Virus record (IMG/VR): IMGVR_UViG_3300030406_006533 | Coordinates: 1-52,755 of that record | DNA from: a virus | Length of the DNA: 52,755 nt | Direction: 5' to 3' (one strand) | Shown here: piece after piece, positions 5,610-41,413 of the stretch | How the letters are laid out: every line of letters starts with the position of its first letter | Numbering within the stretch: position 1 is the first letter of the stretch | The notes under the pieces: generated by a model | The model's input: the letters and a program-made list of their open reading frames with translations, nothing else | What the model was told of the DNA's origin: nothing | Database searches by the model: none | Program-made: the position numbers and the translations under genes

Positions 5610-5640
5610 GACACAATAATTCTACTATGATTCTATGTTC

Positions 5641-5648
5641 TATTTATG
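5641..5648 (-). promoter_or_regulatory. T4-type late promoter (CATAAATA) for the 1845-aa fibre gene
   Basis: CATAAATA on the minus strand lies 32 bp upstream of the ATG at 5609, in the 94-bp spacer after the collar-protein gene. It differs from the T4 late box TATAAATA only at the first base. There is no -35 element, as expected for a clamp-activated late promoter. Confidence 0.6.
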
Positions 5649-5703
5649 TATTGAAATTTGGGTTAATTTAATTCAACATAATACCAAGTCACACAGCATG
5701 TGC

Positions 5704-6162
5704 TTAAGTTTTCATTATGTATGCTAACGCATGGTAAGGTGGCAAGTTTTTATTTGTTACTGACTCACCGTTTGTAGGATTACTCATGCTGAATGCAGTA
5801 CCAGGATATGCACCAGCACCACCAAAAGGAACTGCGTTTGGCGTTCCACCTGTACGGATTAATGTAGCACTATCAACAGTTGTAGGGTGAGTGTGATTAG
5901 GGACTATTGCATCTGCATCACCACCAGTAGCACCTGGTGAAACACCTGGATATGAAGTATCTCCAGTGCTATCAGAAGCACCAACAACAAATTTATTTCT
6001 TAAGTCAGGCGTACCATTATTACCATCACACAATACCCATCCAGATGGTATTGCATTTGTAGCACCATACCACAGTGCTATAAAACCTGTTGGTAAGATA
6101 GCAGGTGCACCACCACCTGCTACAGACACCCATTCACCATCTTTTCTTACTTTTAATCCCAT
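5704..6162 (-). CDS. Phage tail collar-domain protein (short fibre / gp12-tip-like)
   Basis: A 152-residue protein with a clear phage tail-collar domain: residues about 25-75 read GFIALWYGATNAIPSGWVLC, then DGN, PDLRNKFVVGA. The motif NHTHP (about residues 90-94) recalls the HxH metal site of the T4 gp12 tip, and the end NLPPYHALAYIMK is the usual collar-domain terminus. The N-terminus MGLKVRKDGEWVSV is a short attachment-like segment. At 152 aa it is much shorter than T4 gp12 (527 aa) and lacks a shaft, so it may be a tip or cap fitted onto one of the giant fibres encoded just upstream. Receptor binding is inferred from the family. Confidence 0.85.
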   Translation of the reverse strand: MGLKVRKDGEWVSVAGGGAPAILPTGFIALWYGATNAIPSGWVLCDGNNGTPDLRNKFVVGASDSTGDTSYPGVSPGATGGDADAIVPNHTHPTTVDSATLIRTGGTPNAVPFGGAGAYPGTAFSMSNPTNGESVTNKNLPPYHALAYIMKT

Positions 6163-6177
6163 AATTATATTTTTTTT

Positions 6178-7848: not shown

Positions 7849-10800
7849 TAAACGTAGACACCTCCACCACTGATAACAAACTGGGGTGAAGCACCTCCTA
7901 CAATACAAGTCAGAGTTGCAAGTGCTCTTGGAGATAATTTCACTTCACCACCACTCGACACCGATATATTACTACCCGATAGGTATATCGTAACATTAGT
8001 TGCCGTAACAATATCTATAATAGCTGCGGTATGGTTGTGGAAACTCACATAATCACCTGCACTGAATACACTGGCAGGAACCGTGAATTGATCACCAGTT
8101 CCAGTTGCTAATTTTAACTTTCCAACATCACCAATAACCAATGTAGTGTTGGTGCTTGTCACTGTGGTTGAGATACCACTTATTCCAGAAGTATCATACC
8201 ATATATCTCCATCACATACTGAACTACCATATCCAACTGTAGGATCATTTTCACCGACATATTTTGCACCAAAAGCATTACTGAGTGTGCCGATACCAAT
8301 TGTTTTTGTGCTCGTTCCATCAACAGTAATTGGTAGAGTACAAGGATGAGATCTACCCTGTTGAGTAACTACAACATCAGTTACTCCTGATACTGTGGAT
8401 GAATCGACCCAAGTTGGAGCAGCATTTCCATTACTTTTGAGTATTTGTCCTGATGTACCATAATTGGATGCACCACTGAATGCAATTGCACCCGTTTCTG
8501 TGATGCGAACTTTTTCTGCTGCTGCTGACCCACTTTGTTGAGTGAAAAAGGTCATATACTTGGAGTTAGTACTTCCAGCTCTATCTTGTGCTCTTAAACT
8601 AACTTCACCATCTGAAGCATCCGAATGAACTGCAAATTCAGTGCCATTTACATCAACTATAAAATTATCTTGGTCATCTTGACCTTGTACAGATGTAATA
8701 CCTACTGAATTGATACGAAGTCTTTCTGATGGTGATGATGAACCATCTGCACTTGTCTTAAACAAAATGGCAGTTGGCATATCAGTTGATGAATTAACTG
8801 AACCATCAACTACAGCCTCAATTGTGGCACCTTGATTGTAAGAATTACCATTAGTATTGTATCCTCTAAAGTCAATTCTTCCTAAACTATCATTGTCTAC
8901 TACGATAGTATTACTACCAATTGTCGCATTCTTACTTCTATAGAACGATAATCTACCACCATTAGCAGCAGTGGATGAATATGCATTGATATCTATTGCA
9001 TCAGCAGCATCCGTAGATACTTGTAAATTTCCAGAATGTAAAGCACCATTATGTGCGACGCATACTTTACCTCCTGATGAGATACGAAGTCTTTCATCAC
9101 CAGCAGTCTCAAATGAAATTGTATCAGCAGTAGGAAATCTTATTTTTGTATTATCATCACCAGTATGTTCAATGGTATCACTTATAACCAAGTTACCAGC
9201 CACTCTTACATATGGATCACTAGATGCAGTGTAAACATATAATTGCTCATCACCAGATGAATTTTTTATTTGAAATACTTTTCCATTATTATCTGCCTGT
9301 AATACTAATTGAGTTGCTGTACCAGTGTTATCTTGTTTAAACTTCCAACCTCTTCTACCACTAGGATCTGCTGAACCCATATCAAAGTGAAGAAGTCCAG
9401 CATCAGCACCACCAGTTCCATGTGCTGCATCAGAATAAAGAGTTAATGGTGATCCTGGACTGATAGTGTTAATACCAACATTACCACCAGTTACATGAAT
9501 ACCATTTTTTGCCGTTATAATACCAACCGACTCAATATTTGTTACATCTTCGTAGGTTAATGATCCAGTAACATCTAAATTACCATCAATTTTTGCATTT
9601 CCATCAACCACAAACTTTTCATGATTACTTGTAGTGGTGACTCCGACAAATAATGATCCTGACGATGTGATACGAACTTTCTCACTATTATCAACTGCAA
9701 AAGCGACACGACTATTATTAACATCATTACCTTTGTCTGCATGAATGATGGCATTTGCAGCGTTCGCATCAATATATGCGAAAGCATATGGACTTGGATC
9801 TGGATTATTATCTCCTAAATTATTTTTATCAGATAAACGAATTCCAGGAGCTGTGTCATGAATAGTTAAAATGTCACCTGGAGTGGTAGTTCCAATACCC
9901 ACATGCCCTTCCTTCGTTATCCTCATCCTTTCTGGAACATTGTCAACATTGGCATTGTTAGAATTATGAACACCAAATACTAAATCAGCAGTATGATTAC
10001 CACGAGATATTGCAGCAATATAAGCAAGGTATGCAGCACCACTATTTCTCCATGCAATACCACGATCTGAATCATTATCAGTAGTCCGAATAATTAAACT
10101 ATTTTTTCCAGTTCCATGAACAGCTAGGTTTCCTTCATCGGTTGCAGATCCACTATTAACAGTCACTGAGCTACTAAATACTGCCGCCTCAGAAACTGTG
10201 AGTCCATCTAAAGTTGTCGCCCCATCTACGTCTAAATCATTAGATATATTAACATTTCCAGTTGGAGTCAGAGCACCAGTAACAGGTCCAAAAATTTCTC
10301 TTGCAGTTAGAATACCAACTGCTAATGTTGCAGTATTTCCAGAAGTGACCGCATTTACACCAGTTGGATTATCAGTTCCGATACCAACATCACCATCAGA
10401 TGTGATGCGAAGTCTTTCAGTTCCTGATAAATTTATAGCAAAATTACTCGACACCATTGAAATGAGTGCTGAGTGAGCAACATTATCACTTAATTGGATT
10501 GAAGCATCTCTACCAGAACCATTAGATTGAAATCTTGCAACTATATTTCCACCAGCAGTCGTGCTAGTTCCAGCATCTTGTATTGTTAAATTATTACCTG
10601 TTCCTGTGGTGGTTCCAATCAATACCTCTCCATCTGATGTGATGCGAAGTTTTTCTTCCTTTGTATTATTATGTTCTGTGACAAAGGTTAAAGCATTAGA
10701 TGCTGTACCAGTTCTCAACGCAACAATTCTTGCAATTGATTGATTAGATCCAGCGGTATCAAAAACTAACTGTGAAAATGTATTTGTTGATCCATTATCA

Positions 10801-13800
10801 TTTCTAATTGTTATTGATGCACCATCATTCCTTTGAGCATCATCATCAGTTGCATCATATGCAGTGGACGAAGATTTATGAACATCTAATAAATCTGATG
10901 GATTATTAGTTCCAATACCAAATTTACCATCTCTATAAACTAATTTTGTACTATCAACTTCGACACCATCATAACCTGATGTAGCACTTCCAAAATGAAC
11001 GTAATGAGTTCCTGAAGCTGATGTATCATCAGTGATGTTTACTTTATTTGCATTTTCAATTGCTACACCAGAATCAATACTACCTTTAAATGTTCCGTAA
11101 ACTTCATTTGCAGTTACAATACCAACCGCTAATGTAGAATTATTATTTGTGAGTGCATTTGCCCCAATTGGATTAATGGTTCCGATACCGACATTACCAG
11201 TTTTATTTGTTTCACCCACCAATCGTAAAATTTCTTTTTGTTGAGTGTGTGGAGAACCTGCAGAACCATCATGAAGATGAAATGCAATATAATTATTTAC
11301 ATTTGCACCACCATGCATTGCCTTGATTGAGTGATATCTGATAGCTGGATTGTCAACTCTAGCAATTCGAATCACTTCAGTCTCTGTATCAAACGTAGGA
11401 GCGGCAGAAATTGATAAAGTTACATCTGGACTATCATTATTAATGCCAACTTTATTATCTTTAACTTTAAGTACAAATCCATCATCTGTTTTTAATGACA
11501 TTTCATTTTGGGCATCAAATGACAATCTTGTGTTTGTAGTACCTTTACGCCTTACTGCAAGAGTATTGATATTAGAATTTGCAGTGATAACACTATCAAA
11601 GTCTGCAGCTCCAGTAAATGTTGTTACACCAGCAATGCTTACATTATCTAAATCTGTATGACCATCTACATCTAAATTACCTGTTATATCAACGTCTCCA
11701 GTCGGAGTCAGAGTACCAGTAACAGGTCCGAAAATCTGTCTTGCAGTTAGAATACCAACCGCTAATGTTGCAGTATTATTAGCATCAACGGCACTCGTAC
11801 CACGAGGATTAGTGGTTCCGATACCAACATCTCCCATGAAACTACCACCATTAGAAGACACGACATAACCTGCCTGAAGTGCAGAGTTTCCAATAGCCTT
11901 TCTTTCACCATCATGAACAAAATTCCATGTACCACCTGCTAGAGTTGAAGCTGAATTACTACCATTAAAACCACTAAATGAACTGTCATCAGACCAAATA
12001 TGATCAATATTGCCTGTTGGAAGATAAGATGATATAAGTGTGTTACCGTTAAAAGAAATATCTCCTCGAACATCTAATTTTACTGCTGGTATTGTACTTC
12101 CGATACCAACATTACCAGATACATGAAATGATCCATCAACATCTAATTTTGCTATTGGTGCAGTAGAATTGATGCCGACATTACCATCTTCTCGAATGGT
12201 CATCTGATCACTTAGAGTTCCACCAGTCGCAGTTCTAAAGACTAATTTACCTTTACCATCACCATGAGCCCCAACTGGATCCTTTGCAGAAATCTGCGCC
12301 ATGGTGTAGGCACTATTTGTCTTATTATCAAACTGCAACATTGCAATATCAGCTGTGGTGCTATTAGTTCTTGCACCACGTATTTTGATTAGTGAATCAT
12401 CACCAGAATTTGCTGAAGTTTCAACAGTAAATGTCGCATCACCATCTCTACTAATCGTCATGTCCTCTGATGATGTTAAACCATCTACGGTTGTTGTCCC
12501 ATCTACATCTAAATTACCAGGTACATTAACATCTCCAGTTGGAGTCAGAGCACCAGTAACAGGTCCAAAAATTTCTCTTGCAGTTAGAATACCAACTGCC
12601 AGTGTTGCAGTGTTACCTGCGACTGCATTTACTCCAGTTGGAATACTAGTTCCGATACCGACATTACCATCTCTTGTAACACGTAAATATTCAGCAGCAT
12701 CAGATACATCAAAGTCTGTTCCATCATATCCTGATCTTCCAACTTTAAATCCATGTTGATCAGAAATCACCAGTGCCATCTGATCAGAAACTTGAGTGTT
12801 ACCACCAGAACCAATGTAGAATAAATCACCAGGTCCAGATTTAAAATCCCAAGAAAGTATTGGCATGGGATTGTAAGTTAAATTACTCCAATCAGATTTA
12901 GATTGAAATACTTTAAATATTCCTTGAGCTCCATCTACTTCTAGATTGTCTTTTCCAGTTTCATCTTTTACTCTAAAGGTACCAAACACATCAAGTTTTT
13001 TTCCTGGATTATCAGTTCCGATACCAACATCACCACCACCTTCGATAACCATTGCTGTATCACCATTTGTGCCTACAGTTCCTGCATCACCATCAGTTTT
13101 TATTAGCAACTTTCCTAAAGTTGTTACTAATGCTACAGAACCATTACTATCAGAAATGCCTATAGACCCAAACGCATCACCACTCTCAAATAGAGCAATA
13201 TTATTTGCAGTAGAATTGAATACATGAAGTGGAAAATCTGGACTATTAGTTCCGATACCCACATAGCCGTTTGATTTGATGCGAAGTTTTTCTGTTGCAT
13301 CACCTGCTATATTACTATCCTTAGTACCAAAAACCAGAGAATAATTAACACCAGCATTTGTTTCACTAATGTTTCTCATGAAACCACTTATGTGGTTTGG
13401 ATCACTATTATCTTCAGTAAAGAATTCTACAGAACCTGTAATATCATTTAAGGAAGCAGAACCATCATCATTTGTAATACGAATAGTTGGTATAGTTCCA
13501 GTAGTCTGAGCATTTGCATCAGATTTAATTTCTAATGTTGTTGCAGGATCATTAGTTCCGAGACCAAATGAACCGAATCCTGTGATACGAACTCTTTCAC
13601 TTAGAGTAGATTCATCTCCTGTACTAAATTTTAAGTAAGCAGTACCTGATGTATTTTCATGATATGCACCTATTAGTGCAGACACTCCCTCATTGCCCGT
13701 ATCTCTTGTTTCAAATTCAATAACACCTACAGCACTATCTGTTTCTGCTGTTATGTCATTATCGGTTAAACGTATATAACTCTCACCATTTGTTTGTATA

Positions 13801-24600: not shown

Positions 24601-27600
24601 TTGTGCCAGATAATTTGAACTATAACCTTCAGTAATATTAAGATTTCTTCCACCAGAAGCACTGTTGCTTTGAACAGTAATGGTGCCAACCATACCACCA
24701 TGATACTGGCAGATATAATAATAAGTTCCAGCTGCACTTGGAGTCCATGATACCGTTCCACTTTCAGCTCCATTATTTGTTACACCTGATGCTTGATTTC
24801 CAGTTCCTGTTGTAGCAGCAGTCTTGATAAAAAATGGATGTCCACTAGCACTTACAGAAAAATTAACAGTATCACCAACATTAAGAGTAACAGTAACGTT
24901 ATTTCCACTTACAGATCCATTTCTATCAGAACCACTTAAGTTATAGGCAGATGCTCCAACATTAGATACATTAATATTAAACGTTGAATTTGATATCTCA
25001 CCACCGACACCAATATATAAATTTCCAGATCCAGCTTCAATAATACGTGAGTCACCACTTGTTAAATGCTCTATCAGTAAATTATCATTATCACCAAATA
25101 CTGCCTTTGCATTATCTCTAAAATATGCCGTTGTCCCAAATCCGACTGTAGCACCAGTTCCTACAAAAATATTATCTTGGAATGTTGATACTCCAGAAAC
25201 ACTTAAATTAGTCGTATCTAATTGTCCGAAGACTGTGACACCGATTCCTGATGTGGAAAATCGTTTAGTTCCATCGTAATGTAAATTAACTGGACCAAAA
25301 GCACCAAAAAATCCCATTGTGTTGCCGTTATCGACGTTTTGGATTACAATATTCTTACCTGTAAGAACTAAATTTCCTGCTCCTTCATCACGAATTACAC
25401 TGTGAGTACCTGAGTGAAATATGTGAAGGTCGTTTGAATCTCCAAATTTTAGTCTTGCATTATCAATAAACTTAAATGAATTATCAGATTTATCAAAAAA
25501 TGCTGATGTAATTCCAGATGCTCCGTGAAACTTAACATCATCAGTAAATGTTGAAACACCAGTTACTTCTAAATTACGATCAACATCTAAATCTCTGCTA
25601 ACAATAACACGGCCAGCAGAATTTATTGCAAATCTTTCAGCAAAACTATCTTGTATATCTTGTATCGCTAGTTTTCCACCGTTTTGAATAATTCTATAAT
25701 CTGGGTTATTATCATCCTCAGTGAAGGTTATAGTAGGGTTAGCATTTTTGATATGAATATCTCCACCAACAAATAAATCATTTCCTGTAGTGACTACTCC
25801 TACAAATGTAGATACACCAGAGACTTTTAAGTCATGAGAAAATAAAGAATTTGTGGTTACAATACCAACTGCTAATGTAGAATTATTGTTTGTAAGTGCT
25901 TCAGTTCCAGTTGGATTATTAGTTCCAAAACCAACTTTACCATTATGGTCAATGACCATATGTGCTGTGAAGGCATTTGCATCAGAAACGTTTGTGCTTC
26001 CAACTCCAACAACGAATCCGTTATTATCATTATCATTTGTATCATATATTAAATTTAAACCAGAGATTGATGCAAGAGTCGTAAAATTACCACCACTACC
26101 AAAAGGAGGCACATTCTGGTCATCAAAATTTAAGAACGAAAATCCATATGGGTCACTCGATCTACCAACATATTGAACATTTTGCACCGCCATCGCAGCA
26201 GGACCTGATCCTGATATTCTTGATATTCCTGTAATCGCAGTTTGATTATCACCAATAATATTTCCATTTGCATCTATGTTACCAGTAAATGTCGAGATAC
26301 CAGCAACCTTTAAGTCACGAGAAAATAAAGAATTTGTGGTTACAATACCGACTGCTAATGTAGCAGTATTGTTTGTAAGAGCATTAATTCCAGTTGGATT
26401 AGCAGTTCCAATACCAACCTTCATATTAGGCACTGTGCTTCCAATACCGACAGTATCAGAAGTGATTCTTATAATCTCAAAACCACCAGCTGCGAGTCCT
26501 AGTTGATTATTGTCAGGATGATTAAAGAAAGTATCATGATCACTTTCGAAAGATATTCGACCATCATTATGAGTAGTATTAATATCAAACCTTATCATCT
26601 CCTTGTCATTATCACTTTCAATCAATCTGACATATCCATCAGCATATATGTCTAAACTACCAGATTGACCATTTAATTTAACTTCTGCATCAGAAGAATC
26701 TTTAAGAAATAAATCTCCATCAACAAACGCATCTCCGTTAACATGAAGATTATGTACCTGTGGATTTGCCGTATTAATACCAACATTACTCTGGAACTCA
26801 ACATTATCGATAAACGTGGATATGCCAGCAACTGATACACCAGCTCCAGTTACATGAATACCCCTTCTTGCTGTGATGAGTCCTATAGAATCTACATTTG
26901 TAACATCTTCATAAGTTAGTGTACCTGCAATTGATACATTACCACTAAATGTTCCATCTCCAGTTACAGCAAGAGTTGAACCATTAAATGTTAAATTAGG
27001 ACTATCTTCAAGTTCACCACCAGTTCCAACAATTACAACTCTATCTTCAGTTAGATCCTCTACTTTAAATGTATTTGCCTGACCACCACCATTGATATCA
27101 ACAAGATCTCCAAATGTTGATAAACCAGATACATTTAATTGATCAACATCAAGAGTTTCCTCTATAAAAACATTACTATTAAATGTAGATATTCCATTAA
27201 ACGTTGATATTCCAGATACGACTTCGATACCACCAGCAAAAGTTGATAGTCCGATAAATGTTGATACACCAGTGACTTTTAAGTTGCCAATCTCTTGATT
27301 GTCGAGAATTGTGTTTTTCTCAGCAAAAATTTCTCTTGCAAATATTTTGTCAAATCGAAATGACGCACTTTCACCAATGTTTGATGATTCATTAGCAGCT
27401 GGTAATATATTACCTGTAAACGTTGATACACCAGTTGCCTTAAAGTCACCTGTTGTGGTTCCACCTGAAACTAATATACCTTCATTGGTGGTTTCAAATT
27501 TAATATTATTATTTTCATATAATTTTACACCATTAACATTAGCAGTTGCGAAAAGTTTAGTATCAGTAGAATTTTTTATTTTAAGAGTGCTGGTGCGAAG

Positions 27601-31031: not shown

Positions 31032-34000
31032 TTATCTCAGTGCTAATATTAATGGTGTGACTTGTGCTTGAATTGATCTACTAAAATCTCTTCCAGTGAT
31101 ACTTGAAGTTGTTTGGTTAATTTGTAAACCCTCTCCTATATCAAAATTACCTTGCTGATCCGTAGATGTGAATGGAATCTGTGCTCCATCTCTGGATACG
31201 ATTTCATTTGCCTTTATAGGAATTGCACCTTGTAAGGGTGTCGATATATTTATGTCTGTACCAGCACCAACGTACTCAAAAGAGTGAGAACTTGTTAAGA
31301 TACGACTAATTCTTTGTAAGGAGAAAGGATCATCTGGGAACAATTCATATGGTATGAATTCATTAAAGGTCACAGTAGCTATTCCTATTGATCCGACAGG
31401 ATTTTCAGTAGAGGATTCAACAGTGAAAAATATTGGTTCCATCACAGCTGTTGCGAGTCCTGTATTACCCTCAATATCAACGACTATATTTTGCCCTGAA
31501 AGATAATTTCTACCCTGTGCAATTACATCGACACCAACAAGTTTTCCTGTTGCGTCTACGTCTGCAACTGCCTCTGCAATAATACCTTGTGGTCCTTTTG
31601 GTTCCACCTCCCCATCAAAATCTCTTATTAAAACACTCGGTGGATCTATTGCACTAAATCCTTGTAAATCACTTCCAGTTGCGATTAAATTAATAGACCT
31701 TAACTGTTGAAGAGGTTCTGTAATTCTTCCAGTATCATCAATTCCAGTGGTAATACCCGCGGTATTCACATCTCCTACGTAATTACCTAAATCTATTTTA
31801 AAAAATAACGCCTGACCATCAAAGGGTCTTCTTTCTATACCATCTAAATCTCTAACATTTGCACATACAACAGTATCCTGTCCTTCAGGATTCGTACTTC
31901 CTATCAAGTCCCCTGTAACGTCTCTATTACTTACAATACCAGTAAATTGTGTAGATCCTAAACCAACAGCAACCAAACCAAAATTACCAAATGAAGAGTT
32001 TGAGTTTGTTAGGTCACACTGTGCACCACTCGACGCAAATATTCCAATATCACAACTAATTGTAAATATTGATACTAACTGAGCATATCCATTATTTGTG
32101 AGAGAAACACCTATTCCATTTTCATTATATTGCGTATAAGAGTCAACCACCATAGATTTCAAATCACCACCGATTGTTGAAGCAGTTGCATTATCACCAT
32201 CAACTTTTAATCCGATACTATCAGTCATAAAGTTGGTGCAGTTTCTTACATATGGTGATCTCCATCTACCACTCGGACCCTCAGTTGCAGGTCCAGGTTC
32301 TGTATATCCAGTGACTGCACTATCAGCTCCAGCAGGAGTTGGGAATGCAACACATGCTGCCCCTGCATGAGAAACTCCAACATTTGATCCACCAAAGTTA
32401 AGGTTCTCTATCAGACATCCTCTTCTTACATGAAAGACATCTTTGTTCTTATTTTTTGATTGTACAGTTACTAATCGAAGATCTTCTCCTGTAACCGAAA
32501 CATCAGTTCTTAAACCAATTGGATTATCTTCGATATACAAACCTGGTCTAATTTTAATCGTATCTGTCTCAACTGCGATTGATGCTGCTGCACCTATAGT
32601 TGCCTTGGCATCACCCTCAAGTAATCCACTATTACTATCAGACCCACTCTTAGAAACCCATATGGTTCTTTTTGTCTGTACACCCGATGGTCTCCATGAT
32701 ACACCAGTTCCTACAGATGCTAGACGATAATCATACTCAACATATTGTCCTGAAGAGTGAAGAACACCACCACTTGCAGACACAAAATTGTGTGTGATTC
32801 CAGCGGCAAGTCCACCATCACCAACATCGACTTCGAAAGTGTTTGTGGTGACATTAGAAATTACTAACCACTTACCACTATTTGGATCTTTTGATCTTGG
32901 ATATGATTGATTAAGAGTTACTCCCTTATAATTACAACTAAGAGTTATCGTACCGTCAGGTATCTGTATAGAATCACCATTTGCAAAATCATGATTAGCA
33001 ATGGTTATTTCCATTATACCAGTTGTTGAATTATAATCAACATCTGTTATTGCGTTTGAAAGATTCTCTGCGACTGTTGTACCAACACTATCGTTTCGAT
33101 CTTTAACTGTGCTATCTATATCAACTGTACCTGAGAAAGTTGATACACCAGTTGCTTTTAAATCATCTAACTCAGTATGACCATCAACATCCAAATTGGC
33201 ATTTGCATCTATATTAGCATGGAATGTAGAAACACCAGATATATTTAATTGATTGGCAAATAATGTACTCTTTTGAGTAGTAATTCCAATAAAAGTAGAA
33301 ACTCCAGAATTACTTAATTGTGTAGTAAATAAAGTGCTTTTTTGAGTTGTGATTCCAACGAATGTAGATATACCAGTTACATTTAAAGTTTGAGTTTCAG
33401 TATTTCCAAAAACTGTAATTCCAGATCCAACAGTTCTTAATTTTTCTATATTGGGAGTAGTTCCATCTTGAGATACTCCTACCAGACTGACTGCACCACT
33501 ATTTCCAATACTTACAGTTCCAGCATTACCTGGTCTTATGTTTATTGCAGCAAAGAGAGAGGTATCATCCTGACCTATGGTTAGAATATTATTTTCTTTT
33601 TCAATAATTCTTCTTAAGTACCTATTATCATTACCTGCCTGTAATTCTAATGCATAAATACCAAAGTTTTCATTTACAACAATTGCAGTATCATTTTTTG
33701 TATCACCACTTGGATGTGGGGCAGTAAACGATCCACCTGTGAGGTGAATCATATTTGAGGTAATTATACCTGAATTTGATATTTTATTTGTAAATATCTG
33801 ATCATTAAATGTAGATACACCTATAAATGTTGATACACCAGATACTCTTAGATCATCTAATTCAGTATGTCCATCAACATTAAGATCCGCATTCATAGCT
33901 ACGTTTGCATTAAATGTTGATGTTGCATTTACCGTCAAACTGTCACCAGATGCATCACCAAGTATCGTATTTCCTGCTACATCTAAACTTCCATTTGCAT

Positions 34001-35519
34001 CTATATCACTGTTAAATGTAGCTAACTCTGCTACATTTAATACATCTAAATCTGTCTGTCCATCTACGTCTAAATTTGCATTCGCATCTATATTTCCAGT
34101 AACTGTTAAAATCTCACCAATATTTACATTACTAGCAATACCAACACCACCAGCGATTACAACAGATCCACTTGTCGTATTTGTTGATTGTGTGGCATCA
34201 TGCACATTTAAAGTTCCAGCAATCTCTACATTATTACCAAAAGTAGATAGACCAACAAAAGTCGAAATGCCAGTAACTTTGAGAGTGCCTTGTAGTTCTG
34301 TATTTCCGATTACATCCAAACTTACGGATGGAGCACTACTTCCAATACCAACACTCGACATTCTGTATATGTCATTTCCTTCAAATCCCCAAAAATCTTG
34401 AGTGAATACCGTTGCCAATCCAGTGGGTGAGGTAGGATTCGCTGCAGTTGCTGTAATGTTATCTGTACCAGTACCAAAACTATTTTGTTGTTCAAAATTA
34501 ACTGTTGTGAACGATTGAGCGATTCCAGGAGCAGGGGGAACCTCTTCACCCTCATTTTGTAGAAAAATACCCTCTGAAAATTCTGGTGTAATTGGCACCC
34601 ATCTTATACCAGATCCAGTCTTCTTTAAGAAAAAATTGTTACCACCAGGTGCTCCAGTTGAATCGTAAATATTTCTTGTGACTGCAATACTACCATCAAC
34701 TGCTAATCTTAAGGGTCCTTCTCCAGCATCATTTAGTTGGTCAGTTATATAAACAGCATTTGTAGTTCCCAGTCCGACTCTTGAAGTTCGAATGCCAACG
34801 TCAGGAACTATTAAATCACCAAAAACTGTAATTCCTACCCCAGTGGTTGCAAATCTTCTTGTATTATTATTGAATAATTCTACACCCGCATTATTTGTAA
34901 AAGTCGCATAATTTTGATTATTAGCATTATTTGTTAAAGTAATCTTGTTTGATCTTATGTCAAGTGTTCCACTAGCATCTTGGATAACACTTCCACCAGC
35001 AGTTTTAACATTAACGGTATTAAAGAATGTTGAAACTCCAGAATTACTTAATTGTGTAGTAAATAAAGTACTCTTTTGAGTTGTAATTCCAACAAATGTT
35101 GATAAACCACTTACATTTAAATTTGTAAGATCTAAATCAATTATCTTCGCCTTTCCACCTACATCTAATAATTCTGTTGGTTGAGTGCTTCCAATACCAA
35201 CTTTTCCTGGATTTAATCTAGAATCTGCAGTTATAACTGTTCCACCAGTTCCAACTCTCAATCTATCTCTAACTTCTAAGTCAGGGAAAGATAAAGCTTG
35301 ACTAAAATTGACGACACCTAAAAAACTAACATCATCATTAAAAGTAGTTATACCTGTTATTTGAAGATTAGGTATACCACGTATATCTGGAACATTTAAT
35401 CGATTTAAACTTAATTCTTGTTTTGGTAAAGTTAGAAATCCGTTAATATTAACATCTTTTAAAAATGTTACATTTTCATTAAATTGAGCTTCATTACCCG
35501 TGATCGAAATATTCGACAT
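31032..35519 (-). CDS. Tail fibre/structural protein (1495 aa) with fibre modules and a pectate-lyase-like beta-helix region
   Basis: Starts MSNISITGNEAQFNENVTFL. Residues 1 to about 850 are fibre modules (TGISTFVGLSTFGNNVEIAG, DANANLDVDGHTELDDL), closely related to those of the 2804-aa protein. Residues about 860-930 hold the YPRSKDP domain shared with the 337-aa protein. Residues about 950-1230 begin RTIWVSKSGSDSNSGLLEGD and ATIGAAASIAVETDTIKIRPG, the opening of a right-handed beta-helix of the pectate-lyase type, with CDLTNSNSSFGNFGLV as in the 1845-aa protein. The C-terminal 200 residues include GFSAIDPPSVLIRDFDGEVE and SSHSFEYVGAGTDINIST. There is no S74 domain. A CATAAATA late promoter is 63 bp upstream, and a GGGAG lies near the start. 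Polysaccharide binding or cleavage is possible, but no catalytic residues can be assigned. Confidence 0.8.
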   Translation of the reverse strand: MSNISITGNEAQFNENVTFLKDVNINGFLTLPKQELSLNRLNVPDIRGIPNLQITGITTFNDDVSFLGVVNFSQALSFPDLEVRDRLRVGTGGTVITADSRLNPGKVGIGSTQPTELLDVGGKAKIIDLDLTNLNVSGLSTFVGITTQKSTLFTTQLSNSGVSTFFNTVNVKTAGGSVIQDASGTLDIRSNKITLTNNANNQNYATFTNNAGVELFNNNTRRFATTGVGITVFGDLIVPDVGIRTSRVGLGTTNAVYITDQLNDAGEGPLRLAVDGSIAVTRNIYDSTGAPGGNNFFLKKTGSGIRWVPITPEFSEGIFLQNEGEEVPPAPGIAQSFTTVNFEQQNSFGTGTDNITATAANPTSPTGLATVFTQDFWGFEGNDIYRMSSVGIGSSAPSVSLDVIGNTELQGTLKVTGISTFVGLSTFGNNVEIAGTLNVHDATQSTNTTSGSVVIAGGVGIASNVNIGEILTVTGNIDANANLDVDGQTDLDVLNVAELATFNSDIDANGSLDVAGNTILGDASGDSLTVNATSTFNANVAMNADLNVDGHTELDDLRVSGVSTFIGVSTFNDQIFTNKISNSGIITSNMIHLTGGSFTAPHPSGDTKNDTAIVVNENFGIYALELQAGNDNRYLRRIIEKENNILTIGQDDTSLFAAINIRPGNAGTVSIGNSGAVSLVGVSQDGTTPNIEKLRTVGSGITVFGNTETQTLNVTGISTFVGITTQKSTLFTTQLSNSGVSTFIGITTQKSTLFANQLNISGVSTFHANIDANANLDVDGHTELDDLKATGVSTFSGTVDIDSTVKDRNDSVGTTVAENLSNAITDVDYNSTTGIMEITIANHDFANGDSIQIPDGTITLSCNYKGVTLNQSYPRSKDPNSGKWLVISNVTTNTFEVDVGDGGLAAGITHNFVSASGGVLHSSGQYVEYDYRLASVGTGVSWRPSGVQTKRTIWVSKSGSDSNSGLLEGDAKATIGAAASIAVETDTIKIRPGLYIEDNPIGLRTDVSVTGEDLRLVTVQSKNKNKDVFHVRRGCLIENLNFGGSNVGVSHAGAACVAFPTPAGADSAVTGYTEPGPATEGPSGRWRSPYVRNCTNFMTDSIGLKVDGDNATASTIGGDLKSMVVDSYTQYNENGIGVSLTNNGYAQLVSIFTISCDIGIFASSGAQCDLTNSNSSFGNFGLVAVGLGSTQFTGIVSNRDVTGDLIGSTNPEGQDTVVCANVRDLDGIERRPFDGQALFFKIDLGNYVGDVNTAGITTGIDDTGRITEPLQQLRSINLIATGSDLQGFSAIDPPSVLIRDFDGEVEPKGPQGIIAEAVADVDATGKLVGVDVIAQGRNYLSGQNIVVDIEGNTGLATAVMEPIFFTVESSTENPVGSIGIATVTFNEFIPYELFPDDPFSLQRISRILTSSHSFEYVGAGTDINISTPLQGAIPIKANEIVSRDGAQIPFTSTDQQGNFDIGEGLQINQTTSSITGRDFSRSIQAQVTPLILALR
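34969..35096. repeat. 128-bp identical direct repeat, copy 2
   Basis: Second copy of the repeat at 24260-24387, located near the 5' end of the 1495-aa gene. A third, diverged version of part of it lies near 33261-33360 in the same gene. Confidence 0.9.
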
Positions 35520-35595: not shown

Positions 35596-38502
35596 TTAAG
35601 TGATATCAAGGTTGCCAGAAAATGATAATGCACCTCCAACAAATCTTAGTGAAAATTCACCATCAACAATAGGTGGGTCGGCAGTGCTAAATCTTAAACT
35701 TGTTTTATCTGATATTCCAGCATAAGAATTACCTGCAGCGTCATCAAAGGCTGTGGCAGCAATTTGAACATAAAAAACTGTATCATCTTCTAAATCACTA
35801 CTTGGGTTTATTGTTATCTGACTGGTTCCTGATCCCGTCACCTGACCACTTGTTACGTTAATCGTTTCTACAACAGAATCATCTGATGCCTTATAGATAA
35901 CAATATTTCCACTTTCTGCATCTACTGCTTCAGAAAAATTAAGAACGATGTTCGCATTTATTGCGACTCCTGTAGCATTGTTAGATGGAACAGAACTACT
36001 TAAAGTTGGATTAGTAGTATCAATAGCAGTATCAAAAGGAACAATGGCAGGACCACCTTGTAAACTATTTTGATCAGTCCATCCTGAATCATTAACAGAT
36101 GCTGAATCAGTTCCAAAATGAAAATCATTTGTATCTTGTTGACCAATTGATGTTAACCAACTTTTAATATCTGTAGAAGTCCAAGTTCGATTATATTGTA
36201 ATTTTGTGGCAATTAAACCAACTGCAATTGGACAGGCAGAACTCGTTCCATTAAAATATCTATCGTAACTACGGGGAGATGTAACAGAATTATAGGTATA
36301 AAAAGAATCATAACGAGGATATCCACTTTTTCTATTATCAGAAGCTGCAAATGTATCATCTGCAACAGAATAAAGATCAACAAAATCACCAGTACCACTA
36401 TAATTTACTTTTCTTTCTTTCCCAGATGAAAAATCATCATCTAATGCTCCAATTACAATTGTATTATTAAATGCAGTTGGAAAACCTCCCCTATTAAGAG
36501 TTTTATGATAAGTCAGTCCATCAGTGGATCTATAAAATTGTGTTGAACTTAAAGAACTATTAGAACTAGAACCAACATAATTATTATAATCTGCGTGAGT
36601 GCTTTTGACCATCTTTTGATTACGGTTTCCAGCAGAACATACAAAAATAACCCCTGCTGCAGTCATTTCATTTGCAGCAGTCATAGTTGATCCACTTATA
36701 GGTTCATACTGGACAACAGCATCAACACTATCAGGAGTTCGATTGGTCATGAATCTTGGAGCAGTCCCTCCTGTGCCATCAGTGTTAGCATCTCCATCCC
36801 AACTAGTGTATTGAACTCCAGTTGTAGTGCCATCAATTGAAGCAGGTCGATAAAAATAGTAACCACTTGACATACTTTCCGAATCTGTCCTAAATCTTCT
36901 TCCCCAACTATTACTAGAGATTGTTGGATTTTTATTCCCATAAGTTGGATTTGTTGGTTTAGTCTGATGAAATATTTTTTGTAAATCAAAACCCCTTTCA
37001 AAATACACACCACCTGATCCATAAAGATTTAAAAACCATTTATTTGCATTATAAGCCCAACCATACTGTCTCCCATATGCCTGAGAAGCACATGGTGTTC
37101 CATGACTTCCAGTTCCACCTTTATAACTTTTATGAGTTCCATTACATCTATCTCTATTATAATCTCCTCTATGTGGTCCGTTTGCAAACCAAGCACTAGT
37201 GCTAGGTGCAGTGATCGTTATATCATACGTTGATACTGATCCCGTACCAGTGCAAGGATTATCTTTAACAAGAATATATCCATACATAGAGTGATTAGCA
37301 CACCGAATATAATAAAACCCTGCAGTATTAGGTGTCCATGATGTTGTCGAGTTTCCATTAGCACCTTGACCTGTGGCAGCTGGAGTGCTGACCTGATTTC
37401 CAGTTCCAGATGTGTTTGACGTTTTAATATAAAATGCATGTTCAGTTCCAACATTTGACATATTAAAGTTGACAGTATCTCCAACATAAAGTCTAACGTA
37501 TGGAGTCGCTTGATTTATAATAGCACCTGAGTCAGGAGTCACAGTTCCTACGCTTGCATAAGCAGCAGATCTTTTTGATGCATCAGACCACCATTCCTTT
37601 GCAACAGATTCAACTGGAACTTTTGTTCCATCCCAACGAGTGGTTAATCTTGTACTAGGACTTGCCTCAAACCATGCAGAGTCAAGATAATAAGGAGCAT
37701 CTAAAACTAAATCCAATACATCACACATACCAGTTGTGGAAGAGGATGAAAATCCATTTCTTAAAGCATTACCACCAACATAATTACTCGGTGCTTCAGT
37801 AGAAGCATTTCCCCCTATACCATCTCCTTGTGAAGCATCATAAGTTTTTATATCTGTAATTGCACTTGGATTGCAAAATTCAATATGCCCAAACCACATA
37901 TCTTCATCACATACAATTACATCAACATCTGATCCTGTTCCATGTTGAGGTAATTTGTTACTAATTACGGATGTTGCATCTCCCAATGTCACCCAAGGAT
38001 TTTTTTTTGCTGAGTGTCGATGTAATTGAGCTGAACATCTATTCAATTTATCAGAATTATAATTCTCACGAATACCTCCAGAAGTACTAGTTATTTTTTG
38101 TTGGTTTTTTACATTTGATGAATATCTATCAGTTAAGGTTTCAGTTAATTCATCTGGATTGATTGCATAAGTTCCTGGATATGCACATGCATTAATATTT
38201 ACATAGTCTACTTTTGGATTTGATCTAAGTTCAGTTGCTTCAGTATCTGTTAATAAATATATTCCTCTTACATCACTTTGAAGACAATCATTTACACACT
38301 CACATTTATCCGTTGGTATATTATCCTCTAATGATCCATCTTTCATCAATTCTGCATGAATAAATTCCCAGTCACTTTTTTGAAAACAACCAACACAATA
38401 TTCTTTTTTTACATCACCTAATGGTTCTTTAGGTGCTCTACTTTTTTCTTCTTCAAAAATTGCTTTTCGACTTTCATAATCATCAAGATCAATTAAACTC
38501 AT
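35596..38502 (-). CDS. Virion-module subtilisin-like serine protease (S8) with inserted cupredoxin domain and C-terminal Ig-like domain
   Basis: A 968-residue protein with the subtilase catalytic set in order: Asp199 in VDVIVCDEDMW, His467 in GTGSHGTPCAS, oxyanion Asn626 in FVCSAGNRNQ and Ser754 in FNGTSSACPIAVG. The Asp-His distance of 268 residues is far above the usual 30-60 and contains a cupredoxin-like domain (about residues 320-415, listed separately). Residues about 825-940 form a bacterial Ig-like domain (NPTLSSSVPSNNATGVAINA, LNFSEAVD). The N-terminal 120 residues are Cys-rich (CVGCFQKSDW, DKCECVNDC) and might bind metal. There is no signal peptide. Its start is 8 bp after the gp5-needle gene, with GGGAGG embedded in that gene's last codons. 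Placement in the hub-to-fibre operon suggests a virion protease acting on host surface proteins or on phage fibres. Confidence 0.88.
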   Translation of the reverse strand: MSLIDLDDYESRKAIFEEEKSRAPKEPLGDVKKEYCVGCFQKSDWEFIHAELMKDGSLEDNIPTDKCECVNDCLQSDVRGIYLLTDTEATELRSNPKVDYVNINACAYPGTYAINPDELTETLTDRYSSNVKNQQKITSTSGGIRENYNSDKLNRCSAQLHRHSAKKNPWVTLGDATSVISNKLPQHGTGSDVDVIVCDEDMWFGHIEFCNPSAITDIKTYDASQGDGIGGNASTEAPSNYVGGNALRNGFSSSSTTGMCDVLDLVLDAPYYLDSAWFEASPSTRLTTRWDGTKVPVESVAKEWWSDASKRSAAYASVGTVTPDSGAIINQATPYVRLYVGDTVNFNMSNVGTEHAFYIKTSNTSGTGNQVSTPAATGQGANGNSTTSWTPNTAGFYYIRCANHSMYGYILVKDNPCTGTGSVSTYDITITAPSTSAWFANGPHRGDYNRDRCNGTHKSYKGGTGSHGTPCASQAYGRQYGWAYNANKWFLNLYGSGGVYFERGFDLQKIFHQTKPTNPTYGNKNPTISSNSWGRRFRTDSESMSSGYYFYRPASIDGTTTGVQYTSWDGDANTDGTGGTAPRFMTNRTPDSVDAVVQYEPISGSTMTAANEMTAAGVIFVCSAGNRNQKMVKSTHADYNNYVGSSSNSSLSSTQFYRSTDGLTYHKTLNRGGFPTAFNNTIVIGALDDDFSSGKERKVNYSGTGDFVDLYSVADDTFAASDNRKSGYPRYDSFYTYNSVTSPRSYDRYFNGTSSACPIAVGLIATKLQYNRTWTSTDIKSWLTSIGQQDTNDFHFGTDSASVNDSGWTDQNSLQGGPAIVPFDTAIDTTNPTLSSSVPSNNATGVAINANIVLNFSEAVDAESGNIVIYKASDDSVVETINVTSGQVTGSGTSQITINPSSDLEDDTVFYVQIAATAFDDAAGNSYAGISDKTSLRFSTADPPIVDGEFSLRFVGGALSFSGNLDIT
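37255..37560 (-). other. Cupredoxin-like domain inserted in the virion subtilase
   Basis: Residues about 320-415 read YVRLYVGDTVNFNMSNVG, EHAFYIKTS, a Gly/Asn loop with GTGNQV, then TTSWTPNTAGFYYIRCANHS and MYGYILV. The candidate copper ligands are His355, Cys401, His404 and Met406. The Met spacing (C-x2-H-x-M) is one residue shorter than in the fibre copy, so the axial ligand is less certain. GTGNQ and SWTP.AG.YYI.C are shared with the fibre domain, pointing to a common origin. Confidence 0.6.
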
Positions 38503-38510
38503 AATTTATG

Positions 38511-39107
38511 TTACCTCCCTAAATCTGGTACATCTCCAGTCCCTGAAACAACTGGTTTTGATATAAACTTATCACCTGCAGGAGGATTTTTAAGATAATC
38601 CTCACCGACATAACTACCTTTAAATACTCTCTGTAAAAAACCACCAACAGTTTTCTCAATCAAATTTCCAATAAGACCTACTGCTTGAACTTTTGTTCCT
38701 TTCAAGGTCACTGTTGATGCAGCGTTTAAAGTTATATTGCGACCAGCTTTTAAATCAATATCCTCATCTGCCTGAACAATCACACTTCCTCCAGAGATTT
38801 TTACCTGACCATTACCCATCACAGTTATTTCAATGTTTCCCTCGATTGATTTAATCATAATTGATTCATCACTTCCACTATTTTTAGATCCTGCGACCAC
38901 CTCAATTGTTCTTTCATTATGAAGTCGAAATACTCCAGATTCACTTAGTGCAGAAAATTGTTTATCTTTATTGTCAGTAACTGCATATTGTAAATATGTA
39001 TTTGGACCATCAGCTCCCATTTGAGGATTGTTTACATCAATTCGAAACTTAGGTCCTCTACTATCAATTACTCTTTGTTCCCAATTTTGATTTGGTTTTT
39101 CAGCCAT
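38511..39107 (-). CDS. gp5-type needle / baseplate hub spike protein
   Basis: A 198-residue protein. The core (about residues 75-150) is a run of short alternating strands, SIMIKSIEGNIEITVMGNGQ, VKISGGSVIVQADEDIDL, KAGRNITLNAASTVTLKG, the beta-prism pattern of the T4 gp5 C-terminal needle and VgrG spikes. The N-terminus (NQNWEQRVIDSRGPKFRIDV) is a short mixed segment. In T4 the needle is part of gp5; here it is a separate gene starting on the stop of the gp5 OB-fold gene (TAATG). Translation coupling would make both in fixed ratio. A trimeric spike tip of the tail tube is expected. Confidence 0.8.
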   Translation of the reverse strand: MAEKPNQNWEQRVIDSRGPKFRIDVNNPQMGADGPNTYLQYAVTDNKDKQFSALSESGVFRLHNERTIEVVAGSKNSGSDESIMIKSIEGNIEITVMGNGQVKISGGSVIVQADEDIDLKAGRNITLNAASTVTLKGTKVQAVGLIGNLIEKTVGGFLQRVFKGSYVGEDYLKNPPAGDKFISKPVVSGTGDVPDLGR

Positions 39108-41413
39108 TAGTAACCACCTCCATATCCACCACCACCTGATGGAGGAGCACTTGGTGGTGGACTGCTTGGTGGTGGAGTACTTGGTGGTGGAGTTTGCGTG
39201 GTTGTATTATTTGTCATAGTTGATGTTGGAGTTATTGTTGGTTGATCTGAAGTAACTACTTGCGTAGTTGTAGATGCGACACCTATCACAGATGGTGTGA
39301 AACTTTGTTCTGGTGTATCGTAAATTATTTCATGTGGAGATGAAGTGTGTGCTATACCTACCATCTTCACACCCTTTGTTGGATGTATGTGATAAGGACC
39401 ATAATATGGTTTACCATTTACATATCCAACCAAATTATTTGTTTCAGGTCCTACACAATCAATTACCTGTATCACTTCACCTTGTGGGGTAAGTGGTAAT
39501 CTACCTATAATTGGTTTAATAAGTGCTCCGACACCTGTGGATGAAGACACAATAATTTTAGGTATTTCAGTAACCTTAACGTTATTTATTGGACTCGCAG
39601 ATATGATTACACCATTATCAATAGTTAAATTATATCCATCTGCAAACGCATCAACATATCCCTGTCCACCATCTACTACTCTAGTGCCAATAACACCGAC
39701 AGGAATTTCATCTGAATTAACAACTTCATCAGTATCAGAACTCGGATAATTTTCACCTTCAGAAATCATATCAACAGCAATAATTTGTCCATAAGTATCT
39801 GAATTTGGATCATAATCAATAACAGCTCTTCCAACCGCACCATATCCTTGTCTACATGGATCCTCAAAACTAACAACAGGAGGAGTTGTAAAATATGTTG
39901 AACCTGGATCTGTAATCTCAACACCAATAATACTTGCAGTTCGACTTACATCTGCAGTAACATCAGATAATCCCTCTGTGTTATCTACAATACCACCTAA
40001 TATGACTCGACCAAATCCACCAATACCATCTCCACCAAAGAATCTAACAGTTGGAGGACCACAAAAAGTTCTAGACGCACAATCTGGTTTTGTTAGAGGA
40101 CCACTATCAGCTCCAAGTGTATCTGCAATATTCATATTTCTCAAAACATTATCATAAGTATTCTGTAAATCAAAAGTTCTTGCAGGACCATATCCAAGAG
40201 TATATTTTTTAACTTGACCCATACATTTACCATCACTTTGATTACAATCTAATACTCCACCAATCGATTTAAATACATCAGAACTACTTCGAAGAAAATC
40301 CTGAACTTTAAAACTTTTTGGAACAATCTCACTTAATCCCTCAAGTGGTGCATCAAGAGCCGATGATATATCATTTGTAATCCCATTTAATAATGAACCA
40401 GCTAATTGCTCAGTAATACATGTTCCTGTATCCACCACTTCAAGAACAGCTGATGTTATCAAATCTCGAATTGTTTGTCCTAATCCATTAACGACTTTAC
40501 CACTTAAACAATTAAGATCATTTTGAAGTGATGCGACTTTTGATACTTGTCCTTTTTGTGCTTCGATACCAGCCAATTTTGCTAAACTACTATTTTGAGT
40601 GGCTGCAAACACAGCACCATACGTCCTATTGTATAGTGCATCTAATCCTCCCTGCAATTCAGGAATCATACCCGAATACAAAGATTCCATCATTGTTGAT
40701 ACTGCACTATTTGATAAATTTTGTATTTTTTTAGTTACGTTGGCAACATCTGATAAAAAGTCTGTGCTTTCACTCGTAACTGATAATAAATTATCTAAAC
40801 TTGCAGATACTTTCCCTATAAAGTTGTCAGCACAAGAGTCAGCAGGTATCGATGACTTTCCAAGAGTAGATGATGCTGATATTTTGTCCTCTCCTGCACT
40901 TACTTTTCTTGTAACGGGAGATTCTTGTGCGGTTGTTTCTTTGCTACCAGACTCATTTGCTTTTAGTGTTCCATTTGGTGCTGGTATTTTATCAGTATAC
41001 CCTGTAAATGGTACAAAGCCAATCGATTCAGATGGTAAACTTTGCGGAACATCACTTGTTCTTGAAAAAGCACCTAATATTACGGGTTGTTGTGCTGTTT
41101 CACCGTCAAGAAAAAATCCAATTACAACATCACCTGGTCTTAATGCAACAGATGCTGTAAAATTTGCTCCACCTGTACCTGATGTAGAGGGAAGCATAAT
41201 ATTTGCCCAAGGTAAATCCTCATCTGCTAAGTCTGCTTTCGAAAAGGGATGATATCCCATAATACGGACTTTTAATCGATTACCCCACGAGCTTCCGCCA
41301 TCTTTTGGTGCAAGTTGTTCACCTTGTACTGTTGATGGTGCGACTTGTCCTACCCACCAACGAAAACCATCCTTTCCTACAAAATTACTTTTTAATAGTG
41401 CCTCATCTATCAT
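39107..41413 (-). CDS. 5: Baseplate hub protein gp5 (OB-fold domain), no lysozyme domain visible
   Basis: A 768-residue protein. The N-terminal 130 residues (GFRWWVGQVAPSTVQGEQLA, GNRLKVRIMGYHPFS, PGDVVIGFFLDGETAQQPVI, LGAF) are the gp5 OB-fold. The central part (about 190-400) is helical, with no lysozyme catalytic pattern seen. Residues about 480-570 have GSTYFTTPPVVSFEDPCRQG and VGRAVIDYDPNSDTYGQ, a beta domain common in cyanophage baseplate proteins. The C-terminus is a low-complexity tail of PPPSTPPPSSPPP type ending GGGGYGGGY. The start overlaps the gp27-like gene by ATGA, with a GGAGG inside that gene's end. Calling it gp5 rests on the OB-fold and on its position between gp27-like hub and needle. 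Confidence 0.82.
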   Translation of the reverse strand: MIDEALLKSNFVGKDGFRWWVGQVAPSTVQGEQLAPKDGGSSWGNRLKVRIMGYHPFSKADLADEDLPWANIMLPSTSGTGGANFTASVALRPGDVVIGFFLDGETAQQPVILGAFSRTSDVPQSLPSESIGFVPFTGYTDKIPAPNGTLKANESGSKETTAQESPVTRKVSAGEDKISASSTLGKSSIPADSCADNFIGKVSASLDNLLSVTSESTDFLSDVANVTKKIQNLSNSAVSTMMESLYSGMIPELQGGLDALYNRTYGAVFAATQNSSLAKLAGIEAQKGQVSKVASLQNDLNCLSGKVVNGLGQTIRDLITSAVLEVVDTGTCITEQLAGSLLNGITNDISSALDAPLEGLSEIVPKSFKVQDFLRSSSDVFKSIGGVLDCNQSDGKCMGQVKKYTLGYGPARTFDLQNTYDNVLRNMNIADTLGADSGPLTKPDCASRTFCGPPTVRFFGGDGIGGFGRVILGGIVDNTEGLSDVTADVSRTASIIGVEITDPGSTYFTTPPVVSFEDPCRQGYGAVGRAVIDYDPNSDTYGQIIAVDMISEGENYPSSDTDEVVNSDEIPVGVIGTRVVDGGQGYVDAFADGYNLTIDNGVIISASPINNVKVTEIPKIIVSSSTGVGALIKPIIGRLPLTPQGEVIQVIDCVGPETNNLVGYVNGKPYYGPYHIHPTKGVKMVGIAHTSSPHEIIYDTPEQSFTPSVIGVASTTTQVVTSDQPTITPTSTMTNNTTTQTPPPSTPPPSSPPPSAPPSGGGGYGGGY

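Follow-up and report, generated by a model that had tools for sequence, protein, structure and literature searches.

S8 peptidases were noted in cyanophages by Sullivan et al. 2010 (PMC3037559), and the passages of that paper covered here do not mention a cupredoxin alongside them. These enzymes (T4-GC 292, phrog_9158) belong to the same protease family as the protein described here. In some of them the same cupredoxin is present at the C-terminal end, as indicated by a match between the last part of the PHROG 9158 profile and the fibre cupredoxin of our sequence, and an insertion between the catalytic Asp and His is confined to some of their lineages. The gp9 connector of cyanophages (phrog_677), often encoded just downstream of an S8 gene, bears a C-terminal cupredoxin with the same ligands; it contains no protease and its cupredoxin belongs to a subfamily other than that of the insert considered here. 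The phage domain shares with plastocyanin, amicyanin and rusticyanin (PF00127) a beta-sandwich and the His...Cys-His-Met ligand set but, unlike plastocyanin-type soluble carriers, it is part of structural proteins and proteases. Tail proteins of phages with a blue-copper domain are not described in any paper of the literature library that was searched, and searches of solved structures with phage cupredoxin profiles found no phage copy. Both families, S8 and cupredoxin, are already known; their fusion is a new variation on them.

A proteinase K-like subtilase among tail genes

The window, i.e. the whole 52.8-kb stretch of DNA analysed here, is a virus record, possibly a fragment. Judged from its sequence, it derives from a marine T4-like, cyanophage-type myovirus. 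The closest counterparts of its tail-tube-cap gene, with 40-45% identity, are in S-SKS1 and ACG-2014f, two phages of Synechococcus. The nearest named relatives are thus phages of cyanobacteria, and the source was consequently assigned as 'cyanophage-type'. The genes of interest follow the order gp5-like hub, 198-aa needle-like gene, protease and tail fibre (Table 1). The needle-like and fibre neighbours of the protease are kept in loci L020-L023, and in other loci the S8 protease also sits among fibre and baseplate genes; this neighbourhood suggests that the protease is located in the virion.

Table 1. Features of the protease region and of the fibre copy, in window coordinates
Feature	Position	Strand	Basis
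gp5-like baseplate hub subunit	39107..41413	(-)	PHROG 1922 E 8e-116
198-aa protein upstream of protease, likely gp5 beta-helix/needle-like	38511..39107	(-)	PHROG 3363, weak baseplate hub/lysozyme match
S8 proteinase-K-like subtilase with inserted cupredoxin, 968 aa	35596..38502	(-)	Pfam, PHROG, AlphaFold model
N-terminal beta-alpha-beta region, residues ~30-118, probable I9-like propeptide	38149..38415	(-)	Model secondary structure
S8 catalytic domain, residues 124-826, interrupted by insert	36025..38133	(-)	Pfam, model, fold match
Catalytic Asp199 codon	37906..37908	(-)	Asp in 33/33 full-length family members
Stretch singled out by the first-pass annotation, residues 315-416 of the 968-aa ORF	37255-37560	(-)
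Cupredoxin domain (plastocyanin/amicyanin-like), residues ~319-416	37255..37548	(-)	Profile vs PDB, single-domain model, fold match
Whole inserted block, residues ~327-446	37165..37524	(-)	Missing from 72-73% identical relatives (alignment)
Predicted type-1 copper ligand His355	37438..37440	(-)	Invariant column
Predicted ligand loop C401-A-N-H404-S-M406 (Cys, His, Met ligands)	37285..37302	(-)	One residue below norm
Catalytic His467 codon	37102..37104	(-)	33/33 family members
Oxyanion-hole Asn531 codon	36910..36912	(-)	33/33 family members
Catalytic Ser754 codon	36241..36243	(-)	33/33 family members
Big_5 Ig-like domain, C-terminal, residues 828-940	35683..36021	(-)	PF13205 E 2e-17
Tail fibre downstream of protease, 1495 aa, no cupredoxin	31032..35519	(-)	PHROG 17885 E 1e-138
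Tail-fibre-like ORF with first cupredoxin, 2804 aa	21601..30015	(-)	PHROG tail fiber matches
Fibre cupredoxin, residues 1689-1785, loop CQYHGGM	24661..24951	(-)

The 968-aa ORF matches PF00082 (Peptidase_S8) over residues 445-797 (E 2e-13) and, among the PHROGs, phrog_9158, a family without annotation (E 1e-94). Residues 324-440 separately match phrog_27200, whose profile length of 1832 is that of the P-HM1 protein, and Pfam gave no match over the 37255-37560 stretch of the ORF. The first-pass annotation had claimed the S8 residues Asp, His, Asn and Ser, and the Pfam match together with D199, H467, N531 and S754, present in S8 order in all full-length aligned members, bears this out. An AlphaFold model of the protease (mean pLDDT 75, pTM 0.65) aligns with aqualysin I and proteinase K over ~270 residues (Z 28-29, rmsd 2.4-2.8), starting at model residue 124, which corresponds to residue 1 of the mature enzyme. 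In the ~120 residues that precede this point, the modelled strands and helices follow one another as in an I9 propeptide, while the Pfam I9 family has no match in the window protein and matches one relative weakly (E 0.017). The protease is probably made as a self-processed zymogen, a reading that we infer from the model since Pfam does not confirm the I9-like N-terminal region.

The window protease has in common with proteinase K-like subtilases the fold and the Asp/His/Ser and Asn residues, and it may also have a propeptide as they do; it differs from aqualysin I and proteinase K in being viral and in having an inserted cupredoxin and a C-terminal Big_5 domain. Its family branch also has ~90-120 extra residues from Asp to His, besides the cupredoxin insert. 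Cys471 sits four residues past the catalytic His467, and proteinase K also has a Cys four residues after its catalytic His.

The C-terminal Big_5 domain has a CopC likeness in NCBIfam/Pfam, which is below cut-off. Reading residues 828-940 as a CopC copper chaperone was rejected on this score and because no His is found there, and Big_5 is preferred. The protease of L020 has two Big_5-type repeats at its C-terminus.

The inserted domain and its predicted copper site

Profile comparisons and fold prediction identify the insert as a genuine cupredoxin in which none of the type-1 copper ligands is missing. A profile built from 8 phage copies retrieved plastocyanin among solved structures at E 7e-6, plus nitrite reductase and amicyanin, and one built from 56 phage copies retrieved plastocyanin at E 9e-7; rusticyanin was also among the matches of the phage profiles. 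Taken singly, 33/56 phage copies are recognized by PF00127, the window copy not being among them. Among the 50 fold matches listed for a model of the domain by itself (pLDDT 81), nearly all were blue-copper proteins, with modest Z of 5.4-6.5 (top Z 6.5).

The residues His355, Cys401, His404 and Met406, which had been proposed as ligands at the outset, do align with invariant columns of the 56 phage domains. All four type-1 ligands are found in 164/172 non-redundant phage copies (95%), a count that is biased for the loci retrieved with the cupredoxin-anchored search pattern, which demanded the Cys. They are also found in 41/41 cupredoxin copies encoded downstream of S8, and these entered the sample mainly via S8 and not via the cupredoxin pattern. 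Such conservation indicates that the metal site matters, be it for binding, stability or redox, and we infer from the ligand residues that the insert binds copper.

The ligand loop is where the window clade departs from other copies. The spacing is C-x2-H-x2-M in 161/172 copies, as in amicyanin, and C-x2-H-x1-M only in three copies, of the window clade. To our knowledge, C-x2-H-x2-M is the shortest ligand loop among known cupredoxins, and the window loop falls short of this minimum. Copper ligation by M406 is consequently less certain, while the certainty of the fold is unaffected; loop length is not a strictly defining feature of cupredoxins. The window copy also lies on a long branch of the cupredoxin tree. 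Given this branch and the short loop, its copper site could differ from the usual one. The cupredoxin fold put forward by the first-pass annotation is borne out by the plastocyanin profile and the blue-copper fold matches; a correction to that annotation is that the loop is one residue shorter than in nearly all other copies.

A petE auxiliary metabolic gene, i.e. a stand-alone soluble electron carrier, is ruled out given that the domain lies inside a 968-aa protease. The small PetE-like ORFs of the same cyanophage genomes are distinct and score only E 1e-4 to 1e-7.

Relationship of the insert to the fibre copy

A search within the window aligned the fibre and protease cupredoxins over 85 residues with 51% identity (E 6e-19). 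The cupredoxin tree places both window copies in a part of S8/fibre type, a second part holding the gp9 type. The two domains are thus related, as had been suspected from shared words, and convergence of these words is refuted by the identity and the common clade. Because the insert falls in the S8/fibre subfamily and not in the gp9 one, it does not simply originate from an adjacent gp9 gene, and a plain fusion of a neighbouring gp9 domain into S8 is disfavoured.

The insertion among close relatives

The insert is retained in L020-L023, which are 88% identical to the window protease. In L024/L025, which are 72-73% identical, a block of ~119 residues is cleanly missing and the Asp-His gap amounts to ~149 instead of 268 residues, yet the entire catalytic set is still there. 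The gap of 268 residues is therefore the sum of the ~119-residue insert and an expansion common to this branch of the family, the shortest gap among relatives being ~60 residues. It had been claimed that an extra domain fills the gap, which the insert-free relatives confirm; that homologous subtilases would share the gap without the ligands does not hold for these close relatives, which miss the block itself. Pairwise dN/dS of the insert, calculated between the window and the 88% relatives, is 0.28-0.38 and within the range of the remaining enzyme. No cupredoxin was found in the 10 kb downstream in L127/L128 (same contigs as L024/L025, closest relatives).

Recurrence of the S8-cupredoxin pairing

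A copper-type domain pairs repeatedly with this enzyme, in cis or in the neighbouring gene. The S8 relatives were sampled through an S8 motif, blind to cupredoxin, and the search in other phages that the first-pass annotation had proposed recovered the pairing many times. A cupredoxin occurs in 36/65 complete genes directly downstream of S8 versus 7/393 other same-strand ORFs of the same loci (Fisher p about 1e-28, an optimistic value since the loci are related). Of 51 clusters formed at 85% identity, 20 have a cupredoxin next door and 4 in cis. Those downstream genes that were compared with the PHROGs matched gp9, the connector of baseplate wedge and tail fibre (phrog_677). Copies in cis are found between Asp and His at three sites (the window clade; L193/L195-197, before the RWDGT motif; L093/L102) and between Asn/His and Ser (L007; L103-L105, L108, L115), others being N-terminal or C-terminal to the protease. 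On a quick tree of 98 S8 cores, the cis versus not-cis state requires at least 9 changes and the Asp-His insertion 4. The two arrangements exclude one another in this sample, a next-gene cupredoxin being found beside 0/16 S8 with an internal copy versus 33/62 without (p 4e-5, kinship ignored). Among 16 complete cyanophage genomes with one S8 gene each, 11/14 strong cupredoxin matches (E below 1e-20) are in or beside S8, although the profile includes S8-linked seeds and thereby favours S8-linked matches.

The association is not strict. Phages S-CREM1, S-T4 and S-H38 have S8 and no clear cupredoxin; Syn9, S-SM1, P-SSM4 and S-SKS1 have a cupredoxin without S8, on gp9 in Syn9 and P-SSM4; S-PM2 and P-SSP7 have neither. 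The second group leads us to reject a strict dependence of cupredoxin on S8 and, given its presence on gp9 or other structural proteins of S8-less phages, the domain is not an S8-specific partner. A tblastn search with the gp9-type domain found 328/50,697 phage records, 327 of which are cyanophage or marine and one of which is an actinomycete phage.

That the domain also occurs on fibres, and on the gp9 of phages that have no S8, is in line with a promiscuous beta-sandwich that, like phage Ig-like domains, would be spread among tail genes by recombination with no bearing on proteolysis. The site that holds the cupredoxin in L195 holds an unrelated insert in L188 and L162, so the loop is permissive, which favours such a decoration to some degree; other inserts are present in the L029 and L032 proteases. 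A decoration would not, however, need the four copper ligands to be kept in nearly all copies, and both the concentration of the domain in or immediately downstream of S8 and the mutual exclusion of cis and adjacent copies speak against it. Overall we regard generic decoration as rather unlikely.

A proposed copper module tethered to a tail protease

The first-pass annotation had suggested that the inserted domain could gate protease activity at the cell surface or control maturation. In such a scheme, copper loading of the domain, or its Cu(I)/Cu(II) state, would reshape the catalytic cleft and thereby turn the enzyme on. The position of the insert in the stretch that runs up to the catalytic His, the strict conservation of the copper ligands and the fact that an Asp-His insertion arose more than once would all suit a gate. 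Against this, the insertion site and even the carrier gene vary widely, relatives without the domain retain all catalytic residues, and the linkers on both sides of the cupredoxin (residues 319-334 and 419-422/432-445) are of low confidence in the AlphaFold model. The conserved Cys471 near the catalytic His would be a plausible copper target, but it is not positively associated with the cupredoxin, the Cys being present in 38/60 proteases with a cupredoxin versus 27/29 without; copper acting via Cys471 was rejected on these counts. Because the site is variable and the linkers look flexible, a geometric gate conserved across the family is improbable, and gating in general is not supported by these comparisons and in our view unlikely. 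In the window lineage, where the location of the insert speaks for it, a gate is possible.

A variable position, low-confidence linkers and the existence of the same domain in a separate protein fit instead a module on a tether, able to work from any point of attachment at the tail tip or baseplate. Building on what computation established, i.e. the S8 and cupredoxin folds, the ligand sets, the clean insertion, the recurrent association and the mutual exclusion of arrangements, we propose that a surface loop of a tail or baseplate protease acquired a type-1 copper cupredoxin as a flexibly tethered, copper-loaded and possibly redox-active accessory module, a reading to which we give an even chance. 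The protease would digest a host surface or envelope protein during infection, and the cupredoxin, flexibly tethered and copper-loaded, would hold it at its target. The gp9-borne cupredoxin would likewise hold the baseplate-fibre joint at the target. The copper site would be needed for the interaction with the target or for the integrity of the module, and may be redox-active; some role of copper or redox is possible. Placement inside the catalytic domain would be tolerated, not needed, and a tolerated position does not fit a precise allosteric gate.

A further possibility is a light-dependent adsorption sensor, in which the copper site of the tail would respond to the redox state of a cyanobacterial surface in the light and permit the phage to attach. 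That nearly all records with the gp9-type domain are cyanophage or marine would fit this idea, as would the behaviour of P-HM2, which has S8 and cupredoxin and does not adsorb in the dark, and of P-SSP7, which has neither and infects in the dark (PMC7112961). These two phages nevertheless belong to different families and share almost nothing else. Jia et al. are said to have counted S-PM2 in 2010 among the phages with light-dependent adsorption; this phage lacks both genes, so the link of P-HM2 to light is a lead only, and a sensor of this kind seems very improbable. Hardly less speculative is a scheme in which a copper redox centre of the marine cyanophage tail senses redox conditions at the host surface and, built into the protease in one lineage, lets a live photosynthesising cell license cleavage and entry. 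We consider it a long shot.

Hundreds of cyanophage records carry the domain, on either the tail protease or the baseplate-fibre connector, and its copper ligands hardly vary. Should it be loaded with copper, the particles of these highly abundant marine viruses would contain a metal-redox centre that nobody would have expected there. The cupredoxin also gives a practical starting point for studying how these phages interact with the cell envelope and whether copper or light matters in this process.

Other domain architectures

Giant proteins, namely the 1832-aa protein of P-HM1 (L013:1895-7393) and its relatives, combine S8, cupredoxins on both sides of it and Ig-like domains; P-HM2, with its light-dependent adsorption, is related to P-HM1. 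In L093, L097 and L102, a single subtilase contains as many as five cupredoxin or cupredoxin-like stretches in tandem. The unrelated domain of L188 (ORF 8222-11239) and L162 (ORF 3130-6168), at the site of the L195 cupredoxin, is ~300 aa long and has no Pfam match; its conserved HVFHT.HMHG residues suggest that it might bind metal.

The gp9 proteins of Syn9 (L213:2018-3238) and P-SSM4 (L214:1113-2342) bear a terminal cupredoxin with full type-1 ligands in phages without S8. The S-SCSM2R protein labelled PetE (L004:6248-6754) belongs to the gp9-type structural proteins and has its cupredoxin at the C-terminus; it is likely mis-annotated as an auxiliary metabolic gene, and 'PetE/plastocyanin' annotations in viral genomes should be read with caution as they can designate structural proteins.
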